A stretch of 5,523 nucleotides of DNA from Thermoplasmatota archaeon (GTDB taxonomy: Archaea; Thermoplasmatota; Thermoplasmata; Thermoplasmatales; Thermoplasmataceae), in the NCBI GenBank assembly GCA_023379355.1, contig JAMCUD010000005.1, positions 3,879-9,401 of the forward strand, read 5' to 3'. The notes beneath the pieces were generated by a model. That model was not told the origin of the DNA. It did not search any database and worked only from the letters and a program-made list of their open reading frames with translations. Positions 2,125 through 5,523 of the stretch are shown one piece after another. A program made the translations under genes and the position numbers. Positions within the stretch are counted from its first letter, which is position 1. Each line of letters starts with the position of its first letter.

Positions 2125-2811
2125 ATGATATCTGATTCAATGAATGAAGACTCTTCTCGAGGCATTTCAATTAACGATGACGTTCTCTATCTTGAGCCTG
2201 GCATATGGGCAGTAAAACAGAAAGTTTCACTAAAAGGGACTAGCGGAATAAATCACCATGTGGATTTTTACTGTGAATCCAAAGATGGCGGGAAGATTAT
2301 CATCCTTAAGGCCGACTCGGATTATGGTTCAATTTATGAGATAATAGGAAAGGTTCAGATTCTCCGGGCAGAAAAATATTCAGACGGGATTTTTATAATG
2401 TGCACATGCGATAAATACCAGGGCAACCTCATAAATGCCTTGAAAATGATCGGTGCCATTATCATTAAGAATTTCAGGTTCGGAATCGAACTCTTCACTG
2501 CCGACTCTGGAAAGCCGCCTGTTAAGGGTTCTACCGGATGCAGAAACTCATCGGGATCAATGAGACTGAGAAGAGATCGAATGAGAATAATGCTTGATGT
2601 CATGGAACTTCTGAATGAAGAAAGCAGCAGAATCACCAACATAATCTACAAGTGCAACCTGAATTACAGAAGCGCAAATGAACTGCTTGATGAACTCATA
2701 AAGAAGAATTACGTTCAGTTGAGAAAGGACAGCGAGAATGAAAGCTTTTACACACTCACAAAAGCTGGAAACGATGCAATGCAAAGTGCCAGGAAAATGT
2801 ACTCAGCATGA
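2125..2811 (+). CDS. Winged-helix regulator with Mrr-like nuclease-fold N-terminal domain
   Basis: A 228-aa predicted cytoplasmic DNA-binding protein. Residues about 25-125 resemble the archaeal Mrr/restriction-endonuclease-like fold: GTSGINHHVDF (38-48) matches the GxSGxxHxhD signature, followed by strand KIIILKAD (57-64), a helix at 70-85, strand GIFIMC (88-93) and a helix/strand NLINALKMIGAIII (101-114). The expected (E/Q)xK catalytic pair reads ILK at 60-62, so the acidic or Gln residue is missing and the domain is probably a non-catalytic binding module. A Ser/Gly linker (about 136-147) leads to a winged helix at 148-228 (TNIIYKCNLNYRSANELLDE, LIKKNY, FYTLTKAG). This segment is very like the archaeal HTH_45 (ArnR1-type) family. 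The ATG at 2125 is the first usable start; M6 is an alternative. The stop overlaps the next gene by 4 nt. Target genes are unknown. Confidence 0.75.
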   Translation: MISDSMNEDSSRGISINDDVLYLEPGIWAVKQKVSLKGTSGINHHVDFYCESKDGGKIIILKADSDYGSIYEIIGKVQILRAEKYSDGIFIMCTCDKYQGNLINALKMIGAIIIKNFRFGIELFTADSGKPPVKGSTGCRNSSGSMRLRRDRMRIMLDVMELLNEESSRITNIIYKCNLNYRSANELLDELIKKNYVQLRKDSENESFYTLTKAGNDAMQSARKMYSA

Positions 2812-3449
2812 TAAATCCGGTAATTGCTCTGACCCCCACCATTATTTTCGTAACATGCGTATTTGTTTACATAGGGTTGAGAAAGGAGTCCAGAAAATAT
2901 ATTGCGGAACTGAAAGAACTTAACGAAGAGCAGACCAGGATAATGAACATGATATTCCTGAAAAAGATCATCAGTTTTTTCCTGGAAAGCAAAACCAGCA
3001 GGGACACTGAACAACTCCTTGATAGCATGGAAAATTTTGCTGAGAAGATAGAGGAGGGAGCCTCAAATATCGCCAGTGATGCCACCCACGAAATAGCGGA
3101 CCTGCATAGCTATCTGGATCGAATAAGTAGAAAGCAGAAAAATCTGGCCTCCCTTCAAGTCCTGACTTCAGTGATAACGAATACAGTCCTGGTCTATGGC
3201 GTGATAGTTGCCGCTATGCAGTATTCCATTCTTCTTCTGTTCATTACAGCTCCTCCCTTTGCCCCCATAAGGCAGATAAATGATATTATGATCGGTGCCA
3301 CCCTGATTTTCGGGGCAGTGATAATCTTATTCTACGTCGATATAGTGAGGCTGACTGGAAGGACCAATAACCTGGAGTATTCCGATCAAGAGCCTGTGAA
3401 GACCGCTGATAACGATCCGGGAATGAATTCCTTCAATCCTGCCCGCTAA
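2808..3449 (+). CDS. Unrecognised membrane protein with long helical segment
   Basis: A 213-aa protein of no family I can name. Residues 4-23 (VIALTPTIIFVTCVFVYIG) form a first membrane helix. Residues about 25-115 are charged and strongly helical (AELKELNEEQTRIMNMIF; later EIADLHSYLDRISRKQKNLA), possibly a coiled coil. Residues 117-148 hold one or two membrane helices, residues 159-182 a further one, and the tail of about 30 residues is hydrophilic (EYSDQEPVKTADNDP). The gene starts inside the stop of the regulator (ATGA), so the two are almost certainly co-transcribed and translationally coupled; only a weak AGGA lies 13 nt upstream. The arrangement recalls archaeal regulator and membrane-partner pairs, where a membrane protein might sense or tether the regulator. 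That role is inference. Confidence 0.7.
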   Translation: MINPVIALTPTIIFVTCVFVYIGLRKESRKYIAELKELNEEQTRIMNMIFLKKIISFFLESKTSRDTEQLLDSMENFAEKIEEGASNIASDATHEIADLHSYLDRISRKQKNLASLQVLTSVITNTVLVYGVIVAAMQYSILLLFITAPPFAPIRQINDIMIGATLIFGAVIILFYVDIVRLTGRTNNLEYSDQEPVKTADNDPGMNSFNPAR

Positions 3450-3576
3450 TTCCAAGATCATCTGTGACGAAATCTTATTTGTAGAGTTATAAAAGTTTGC
3501 ATTCCCCATATTAATTGATGAAAGGTTCATATTTATAATTCAAAATGGTTTTTAAATACTCCAGCATTTGTGAATA
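3450..3576 (+). promoter_or_regulatory. Promoter of the TasA-like gene
   Basis: TTTTTAAATA at 3549-3558 is centred about 24 nt before the ATG at 3577, the spacing expected for a leaderless archaeal gene; no SD is present. A second AT-rich run, TTCATATTTATAATTC (3526-3541), lies further upstream and could be an alternative box or a regulator site. No clear terminator follows the preceding gene, so read-through from it remains possible. Confidence 0.55.
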
Positions 3577-4233
3577 ATGCGGATCCGGATCATAATTATC
3601 TGCACTGTGATGATTCTTTCTGTAATGTCCGGATCCCTGGCATTTTCTGCTTTTTCAGGAATGGCAACAACAAATGTTTCAGCTACAGCAAATTTCTTTG
3701 GAATCAACGACGGTGTTTCAGTATGTGCTTTCTGGGCTGATAATACGGAATTGTACGTGAACAGTCACGTTTTTGAGGGTGATTCAAACTGTCTGTTCAA
3801 TGAGCTTTGCCCGCCGGTTGAGGTTATTAAGAACCACACATCCTATTCTGGTTCCATAAATGACAACCTGAACATATCAAATTTTTCACCTGGAAATGCA
3901 CTATTATTCTGTATCCAGATTTACAATCCAAACAGCCAGGTTTTATCTGTCTCGAATATATCCTTTGGGCAGTTCTCAGGTAACGGATTGAGCTTCTACA
4001 ACGCAACGAGCTGCAATAATCAGGAAGCGTGGTTTGCAGTTGTTAACAGCACTGTAAACCAGTGCCAGAATCCTGGCGGTTATTATGGTATAATATGGGA
4101 AAATGGAAACCAGGTATCCCCTGGTTGCAGCCTTACTATTGGCTTCTTCATCTTTCTATCACAGACTTCAGGAAACAGCTATCAGGAATCTTCATTCACT
4201 CTGCCACTGGTGATAACAATGACAGAACAGTGA
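3577..4233 (+). CDS. Secreted TasA/CalY (camelysin)-like protein, candidate surface-fibre or bundling-pilus subunit
   Basis: A 218-aa predicted exported protein. An MRIR start and hydrophobic stretch (5-22) lead into LAFSAFSGMATTNVSATANF (21-40), the pattern of SipW-type signal peptides (A.hFS...t.N.f.aG), with likely cleavage near A22 or A25. Two more family marks follow: NISNFSPGNAL (99-109), which I recall as NLSNLKPGDKL in Bacillus TasA, and a C-terminal NSYQESS (200-206) with final Gln, where TasA has NKYQGNS. These proteins form a jelly-roll fold and assemble into matrix fibres by donor-strand exchange; archaeal relatives make bundling pili. The mature part has 7 cysteines (50, 72, 78, 112, 146, 163, 184), 7 Asn glycosylation sequons, one Lys and no Arg. 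The length is usual for the family. Fibre formation here is inference; a non-polymerising relative is possible. Confidence 0.72.
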   Translation: MRIRIIIICTVMILSVMSGSLAFSAFSGMATTNVSATANFFGINDGVSVCAFWADNTELYVNSHVFEGDSNCLFNELCPPVEVIKNHTSYSGSINDNLNISNFSPGNALLFCIQIYNPNSQVLSVSNISFGQFSGNGLSFYNATSCNNQEAWFAVVNSTVNQCQNPGGYYGIIWENGNQVSPGCSLTIGFFIFLSQTSGNSYQESSFTLPLVITMTEQ

Positions 4234-4406: not shown

Positions 4407-5354
4407 ATGAAGTCTATAATTAATAAGAAAAGTAAATCCACTGCTATAGGTGTGGTTGGCATAATTATTCTTGCCATTGCCCTCATTGTTCTTGTTCAGC
4501 CTAGGCCAAGAGATGTTCGTGAAGCCTATGGCTCTTATTCACTGAATGCCGGTATGAGTCTTGTTGATCAGTTACATAACAGCACACTATATGGCAACAA
4601 TACCACGCTAACAGATCCGTCTGTTATATACAATAGCATCAGCAAGGATGTGTTAATTGACGTGAATGTAAATTATTTCAATTCCCAAGGATCAAGTGAA
4701 CAGATCTATTACAGCTACAGTGTGTACGTCATATCTTCAAGTCCCTCCTGGGAGAAACTTTCATACAGCACAGATAAAGTTTTTAGCGCTACGTCTAGCT
4801 TCTCATATTCTTTTGTGATGAGAATAAACCTGACCTCCAACGTTTCCTTAGGATCTGAAATCAATGATCAGCTTGGGTTTACCTCAGGTTCGTCCTATTC
4901 AATAAACATAATTTCCCAGGCAAAGAGCGATCTTGGGTCGTCAGATTCAAATCTTACCATTGCCATTGGAGGAGCCACTGATTCTGTTTCAGGACCAGGA
5001 GATGCTCCCGTGACAGGTTCTTACTTCAAGAATGCTGTGATCCCGGGAAAGATAATTATTCCACTGAGCCGTGATACTTCCTATCCGCTGATTATAATTG
5101 CTGCCATACTTCTGGGTTATTCAGCCTTTTTGGTTATGCCTTCCAAACCTGATCCTGTCCAAAGGTTCAGAAGAGATAACAGAGAGAACCTCATAGAACT
5201 GGGTGTAGGTCCACCAGATGGATCCATTCCTGTAAGAAGTACTGATGACCTATTTAGGATGGCGACCTTTGTGGAAAGGCCTGTGTTTATCTTTGAAGAC
5301 ATAGTATTTATTGAGATTGATGGAAAAACATATTATGCGGAGATTAAAAAATGA
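4407..5354 (+). CDS. DUF5305-like membrane protein
   Basis: A 315-aa protein with an N-terminal membrane helix (about 12-30, AIGVVGIIILAIALIVLV), an outside domain (31-225), a second membrane helix (about 226-245, YPLIIIAAILLGYSAFLVM) and a cytoplasmic tail (246-315). The outside domain begins with YGSYSLNAGM, is rich in Ser, Tyr and Asn, has six Asn sequons (58, 64, 65, 141, 145, 182) and contains no Cys. The tail carries the segment I associate with archaeal DUF5305 proteins: a LIELGVGPPDG stretch, then RSTDDLFRMA, RPVFIFED and a final DGKTYYAEI. In haloarchaea such genes often sit beside S26 signal peptidases and SipW-type secreted proteins, which agrees with the TasA-like gene upstream. 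The function is unknown; anchoring, export or assembly of the surface protein is inference. The stop overlaps the next ORF (ATGA). Confidence 0.68.
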   Translation: MKSIINKKSKSTAIGVVGIIILAIALIVLVQPRPRDVREAYGSYSLNAGMSLVDQLHNSTLYGNNTTLTDPSVIYNSISKDVLIDVNVNYFNSQGSSEQIYYSYSVYVISSSPSWEKLSYSTDKVFSATSSFSYSFVMRINLTSNVSLGSEINDQLGFTSGSSYSINIISQAKSDLGSSDSNLTIAIGGATDSVSGPGDAPVTGSYFKNAVIPGKIIIPLSRDTSYPLIIIAAILLGYSAFLVMPSKPDPVQRFRRDNRENLIELGVGPPDGSIPVRSTDDLFRMATFVERPVFIFEDIVFIEIDGKTYYAEIKK

Positions 5355-5518
5355 AATCAAGATGGTACATACCATTACTGTACATCGTTTTCTGGCAGTC
5401 CAGCTACTTTTTCAAATTCAGCCAATGGATCGTGATGCTATCAACTCTGCCGGTTCTTTTAATCTATTACAGAAAATTCCGTGGAGACAGTAAATGGCCG
5501 TACGCTCCAGTTCTATGA
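5351..5518 (+). CDS. Small two-helix membrane protein, 55 aa, unrecognised
   Basis: It starts at ATG 5351 inside the stop of the DUF5305-like gene (ATGA) and ends at TGA 5516-5518. GGAG at 5339-5342, 8 nt before the ATG, is a fair SD, unlike the leaderless starts upstream. The overlap, the SD and the hydrophobic make-up together support it as a real coupled gene. The sequence shows a basic start (MKSR), a first membrane helix about 6-22 (YIPLLYIVFWQSSYFF), a second about 26-40 (WIVMLSTLPVLLIYY) and a basic tail (RKFRGDSKWPYAPVL). It lacks any protease motif, so it is not a signal peptidase. It could be a small subunit working with the DUF5305-like protein, or the N-terminal part of a longer gene cut by a real or sequencing frameshift near 5516; the window ends too soon to tell. 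Confidence 0.6.
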   Translation: MKSRWYIPLLYIVFWQSSYFFKFSQWIVMLSTLPVLLIYYRKFRGDSKWPYAPVL

Positions 5519-5523
5519 GGTTC

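Follow-up and report, generated by a model that had tools for sequence, protein, structure and literature searches.

Introduction

The TasA fibres of Bacillus are bacterial biofilm fibres with a camelysin-homologous subunit, as described in two reports (PMC9674648, PMC10151520). According to excerpts of a third (PMC10269814), the P2′ residue at the signal cleavage site of TasA is a phenylalanine, and the enzyme that processes TasA is SipW, a signal peptidase of the endoplasmic reticulum (ER) type. In the assembled fibre, F29 of the mature N-terminus and P62 form an inter-subunit 'proline box' (PMC10151520, in part). In B. cereus, three SipW-processed proteins, TasA, CalY and CapP, are used together (excerpts of PMC13082335). 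Here we analyse a 5,523-nucleotide stretch of archaeal DNA (hereafter the window; contig JAMCUD010000005.1, positions 3,879 to 9,401, of assembly GCA_023379355.1, Thermoplasmatota) and its gene for a secreted protein, which we call TasL1. Bundling pili are reportedly widely distributed in archaea, according to the founding paper on AbpA, the bundling pilus protein of Pyrobaculum calidifontis. The original prediction, made from the letters of the window, had proposed that TasL1 is an archaeal relative of TasA and of the bundling pili. TasL1 is most likely a remote cysteine-rich variant of the TasA/camelysin-type filament subunits in Thermoplasmata. In what follows P0001 denotes the TasL1 protein of the window, L numbers denote loci and G numbers genomes.

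Results

Several lines of evidence, only partly independent of each other, speak for remote homology of TasL1 to the TasA/camelysin family: sub-threshold matches to the camelysin family PF12389, TasA as the top profile match in the PDB, a profile–profile match, a predicted beta-sandwich and synteny. Conservation was read from an alignment of 74 rows (A2), consisting of P0001 and 73 proteins hand-picked from 106. The selection passed over fragments, a single chimeric record and rows of low coverage, and percentages on A2 thus lean to well-covered relatives; counts of its members are not independent, the members being related. A further alignment (A3) comprised 60 sequences, and a narrower profile than A2 was also used (A1). 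At E≤0.1, 37 of the 74 members matched PF12389, the best at 2e-4 and all below the cut-off; the second most-matched Pfam family was found for four members only. Among the NCBIfam models, the TasA model NF046066 was matched most often (10/74), followed by an S-layer model (7/74). The A2 profile found TasA first in the PDB (8aur, E=0.0076; 5of1, E=0.0083), the next chain being one deposited as flagellin (8fk7, E=0.044), and the two matches obtained with A1 were both TasA (E=0.47). In single-sequence searches of the PDB, TasL1 matched nothing but a fimbrial chain (E=0.47), and one archaeal PF12389 protein did not match TasA.

Proteins that pass the PF12389 cut-off occur in other members of the same phylum, unlike P0001 and the matches in its close genomes; TasL2 and TasL3, the further TasA-like proteins encoded in close relatives, were below the cut-off or gave no match. 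Nine of the cut-off-passing proteins (L046–L058, from 14 extracted loci; 25 matches in 13 genomes) served as comparison set. With hhalign, the whole family aligned with this set over 147 columns (global probability 64%, E=8.8e-6), and the P-G and N..Q regions of the two sides align. None of 100 column shuffles reached the local score, which was also above that of the reversed profile. Together with the Pfam and PDB matches, this comparison, which the original prediction had called for, bears out the proposed kinship with TasA. The TasL1 subclass was linked to other TasA-like proteins at 99.7% probability. Of 389 Thermoplasmatota genomes sampled, 13 encoded proteins above the PF12389 cut-off (L045–L069).

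Three marks named in advance, a SipW-type signal region, SNxxPG and NxYQ near the C-terminus, are found in TasL1 as AFSAF (22–26), SNFSPG (101–106) and NSYQ (200–203). All 74 members of A2 carry the pattern A[FY]S[AGS]F, and A22, S24, F26, G28, T57 and P105 are invariant. G106 is kept in 73 rows, N200 in 71, Y202 in 70, N102 in 68, Q203 in 56 and S101 in 52. In 200,000 shuffles of mature TasL1, SNxxPG arose in ~1.0%, NxYQ in ~4.7% and both in order in ~0.02%, frequencies that are a rough guide since the patterns came from the finding itself. The predicted signal cut would put F26 at P2′, as in TasA, and the family profile places P105 on the proline of TasA NLKPG, which suggests that its counterpart is P62, provided that the TasA chain starts at residue 28, as its chain range suggests. 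Two of the invariant residues, F26 and P105, thus correspond in place to F29 and P62, through which TasA subunits touch. Of the phenylalanine, proline and glutamine of the proline box, the counterparts of the first two are conserved and the terminal glutamine is not.

AlphaFold modelled mature TasL1 as a beta-sandwich with a free N-terminus [predicted local distance difference test (pLDDT) 81.4, predicted template modelling score 0.79]; residues 1–14 of this model had pLDDT below 50. A first model with the signal peptide kept was weaker (pLDDT 72.6). In both lists of the fold search, AbpA (7ueg) aligned over more residues than any other of the 50 matches shown (138 and 134), with TasA (8aur) second in length.

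TasL1 is a real coding gene under purifying selection, as its divergence is dominated by third codon positions: differences from three orthologues at positions 1/2/3 were 12/9/65, 16/9/53 and 28/14/102. The 218-amino acid (aa) protein that had been read from the window, beginning with ATG, is therefore upheld. The closest relatives with named records are metagenome-assembled genomes of Thermoplasmata. Best segments in L001–L003 had 85–92% identity to TasL1 (residues 1–218), and L004 (Thermoplasmatales archaeon) 47%. In this branch, the named records read 'hypothetical protein', as had been thought possible. The protein shows a hydrophobic signal peptide followed by no later hydrophobic segment, and its mature part has seven N-x-S/T sequons. 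No relative was present in the viral collection, the phage collection gave five matches only (all E 4 to 6), and an Rfam scan found nothing at the gathering threshold. One 159-aa database record (P0008), probably a chimeric assembly, by eye starts like the DUF5305-like protein of the cluster and ends like TasL1.

The window TasL1 has seven cysteines after residue 24. In all 14 TasL1-type proteins of A2 the mature part contains 4–9 cysteines, and of the 60 other members 59 have none and one has a single cysteine. The TasL1 type was found in five of 117 order-level genomes searched, one copy each (48 matches were sorted, from the 21 of these genomes with matches), and in all five the TasL2 and TasL3 of the cluster are cysteine-free. 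A class-wide sample held the family in 17/300 genomes and the TasL1 type, by E below 1e-60, in 4/300. Beyond the rows of A2, L037:2671-3499 (G073), L080 (G071) and L083 (G068) encode TasL2-class paralogues with 5–6 cysteines, which speak against a clean class rule. The same three genomes also hold members with 0 or 1 cysteine. Subunits rich in cysteine may thus have more than one origin.

In L001–L004 the gene order is HTH_45, membrane protein (207–213 aa), TasL1, DUF5305-like, signal peptidase, TasL2 and TasL3. The window keeps this order as far as the start of the signal peptidase gene, where it ends (Table 1). L070 (genome G107, 2.0-Mb contig) has the same order with an interrupted DUF5305-like gene; in the region L070:7282-9868 this gene is split by an insert that codes for a DDE transposase (PF01609, 2.7e-8). 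A smaller module of peptidase, DUF5305-like, one TasA-like and HTH_45 genes is present in L074, L075, L078 and L079.

Table 1. Features of the window around TasL1, by position in the window
Feature	Position	Strand	Basis
HTH_45 winged-helix protein, candidate cluster regulator	2125..2811	+	PF14947 4.5e-14; syntenic in L001–L004, L070
Membrane protein, 213 aa, overlaps HTH_45 gene (ATGA)	2808..3449	+	Hydropathy; syntenic in L001–L004, L070
Conserved 22-base element upstream of TasL1	3524..3545	+	Sequence comparison with relatives
TATA-like box TTTTTAAATACT, 17–28 bases before ATG	3549..3560	+	Read by eye
TasL1, TasA/camelysin-like secreted subunit, cysteine-rich subclass, 218 aa	3577..4233	+	Open reading frame, profiles, motifs, predicted structure
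Sec signal peptide, residues 1–24, predicted cut A22-F-S24 / A25-F26	3577..3648	+	Conservation; site predicted by eye
Mature N-terminus, residues 25–38, candidate donor strand	3649..3690	+	Disordered in monomer model; role inferred from TasA
SNFSPG, residues 101–106	3877..3894	+	P105 74/74; profile alignment to TasA
NSYQ, residues 200–203, C-terminal camelysin-like motif	4174..4185	+	Conservation; aligns with archaeal PF12389 C-terminal N..Q motif
DUF5305-like membrane protein, 315 aa, hydrophobic segments ~8–35 and 224–247	4407..5354	+	Profile matches of relatives, hydropathy
Signal peptidase gene, 5′ part	5351..5518	+	Like start of L003 12541-13722 and of L001/L002 orthologues

A SipW/ER-type signal peptidase is encoded near TasL1 in L001–L004 and L070. 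The L003 and L004 peptidases score over the cut-off of TIGR02228 and below that of SipW model NF046067 (3e-21 and 1.2e-11, respectively, for L003). The cluster peptidase begins with a long stretch that includes several hydrophobic segments; Ser270 and His311 (L003 protein), the candidate Ser-His dyad, are invariant in 7/7 aligned sequences. The cluster peptidase may serve further substrates besides TasA-like proteins, because it is the sole TIGR02228 match in four of seven genomes searched (G004, G107, G073, G098). In the window, the peptidase frame meets a stop 5 bases before the end and the last bases differ from relatives (5351–5523); this early stop is probably a contig-end error. The 315-aa DUF5305-like protein of the window itself had no Pfam match. 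Four of nine aligned sequences, the window protein being one of the nine, matched PF17231 at E≤0.1 (best 2.1e-11), and matches over its cut-off occurred in three of eight genomes searched. The 213-aa membrane protein has about three hydrophobic segments and travels with the HTH_45 gene and the cluster; the two could form a membrane-linked regulator pair. Genes for a thymidylate kinase and an M24 peptidase (methionine aminopeptidase-like) flank the cluster at 169–1630 and are syntenic in L002, L003 and L070.

The window, L002 and L003 share the 22-base element upstream of TasL1 without change, and L001 and L070 each differ from it at a single position; allowing up to four mismatches, it was not found in L004, L071 or L074. 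Its flanks diverge more in L003. It is possibly a regulator site. By eye, the TATA-like box is the same in L001, L002 and L070, partial in L003 and not seen in L004, and its position suggests that the TasL1 transcript probably has a short leader or is leaderless. The promoter and terminator scan, being built for bacterial promoters, was little informative for an archaeon.

Discussion

In this study we compare an archaeal gene cluster with the TasA system of B. subtilis (8aur/5of1). Common to both are a signal peptide that ends before A-F with phenylalanine at P2′, the NL.PG and NxYQ motifs, the beta-sandwich (predicted for TasL1) and a SipW-type peptidase in the operon. Sequence identity in the structural alignment is 14–15%. 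TasL1 differs in being cysteine-rich and in the non-conserved terminal glutamine, and the cluster peptidase in its long N-terminal part with multiple transmembrane (TM) segments. With AbpA it shares the archaeal origin and the longest structural alignment among the matches listed. The three TasA-like genes per cluster, whose products may co-assemble, recall the joint use of several SipW-processed proteins in B. cereus (PMC13082335, in part). In the listed titles and abstract openings from the open literature, no TasA-like filaments were shown for Thermoplasmata.

We consider it likely that TasL1 is exported by Sec and serves as a subunit in an extracellular filament built by donor-strand complementation, of the kind formed by TasA/camelysin and the archaeal bundling pilus. 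The predicted TasA-like way of working has good backing from sequence, motif and gene order. The signal peptide points to export by Sec, followed by presumed cleavage at AFS/AF by the archaeal/SipW-like peptidase encoded two genes downstream, a step suggested by the conserved cut site and by the gene order seen in relatives. The freed N-terminus, starting with A-F, would then complete the open beta-sandwich of the next subunit, and the invariant F26 would pack near the invariant P105, like F29 and P62 in TasA. Together with TasL2 and TasL3, whose genes lie downstream in relatives, TasL1 would build a matrix or bundling filament, in which TasL1 might carry disulphides. Anchoring or help with assembly is a conceivable task of the DUF5305-like protein, and regulation of the cluster one of the HTH_45 protein.

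Some caveats apply to this reading. Filament formation by TasL1 is itself something we infer. Searched alone, P0001 had no match in Pfam; as it did not reach the PF12389 cut-off, TasL1 is not filed as a member of that family. The TasL1 subclass alone compared weakly with the archaeal PF12389 set (12–14% local, 0.06% global probability). The last residue is glutamine in five of the 14 closest sequences and in none of the 60 others, and the terminal glutamine is therefore dropped as the family mark it had been taken for. As for the expected jelly-roll, a beta-sandwich with a free N-terminus was modelled, but its likeness to TasA and AbpA is not specific: their Z scores were unremarkable and not above those of unrelated folds, a glycosidase domain (5fqe/5fqf) ranked first, and MSP, adaptin-ear and PapD-like folds were level with them.

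This generically Ig-like fold would also suit a surface glycoprotein or S-layer-like protein that is secreted and folds as a beta-sandwich but forms no polymer through donor strands, a proposal with which the sequons and the S-layer matches in the family agree. Residues 2–79 of P0001 themselves matched a halophilic S-layer glycoprotein weakly in NCBIfam (E=0.0017). We rank this proposal low and regard it as unlikely, because the match of P0001 disappears once the signal peptide is removed; moreover, the model spans 862 positions against 218 aa, TasL1 lacks a C-terminal hydrophobic anchor, and its family matches camelysin/TasA. It is very improbable that TasL1 is a subunit of the type IV pilin or archaellin-like sort and retains a hydrophobic helix at its N-terminus: the A2 profile N-terminus did match the flagellin chain 8fk7 weakly, but a conserved AxS/AF site like that of signal peptidase I follows the hydrophobic stretch, a signal peptidase is encoded in the cluster, and a profile scan of the cluster genes found no pilus ATPase, platform protein or prepilin peptidase. 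TasL1 can hardly be a protease, as the filing of camelysin as metallopeptidase M73 and the Pfam name of PF12389 might imply, given that the invariant A2 columns contain no His, Asp, Glu or Cys and that the camelysin homologue TasA is a fibre subunit (PMC9674648, PMC10151520, in part).

Within the donor-strand filament that we favour, TasL1 might, instead of making up the bulk of a three-protein filament, have the special task of starting, capping or anchoring it: a TapA/CapP-like part, derived from the TasA fold and locked by disulphides, with the multi-TM domain of the peptidase belonging to the assembly machine. This idea, which is tentative and in our view rather doubtful, comes from the constant presence of cysteine-free subunits beside the cysteine-rich TasL1 in five genomes and from the precedent of three jointly used SipW-processed proteins in B. 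cereus (PMC13082335, in part). Three further genomes pair cysteine-free subunits with cysteine-rich ones of separate descent, which hints that such a division of labour evolved more than once. In B. subtilis, TapA contains five cysteines and forms two disulphides; their removal was without effect on biofilm formation, according to excerpts of PMC10151520, and the cysteines are therefore no proof of such a role.

Our findings would extend the TasA-type biofilm and bundling fibres to a branch of Thermoplasmata in which these proteins are annotated as hypothetical, and they show the smaller module of peptidase, DUF5305-like, TasA-like and HTH_45 genes in further genomes of this taxonomic order. 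That the subunits fall into cysteine-rich and cysteine-poor ones offers a testable model of how such fibres may be started or capped.
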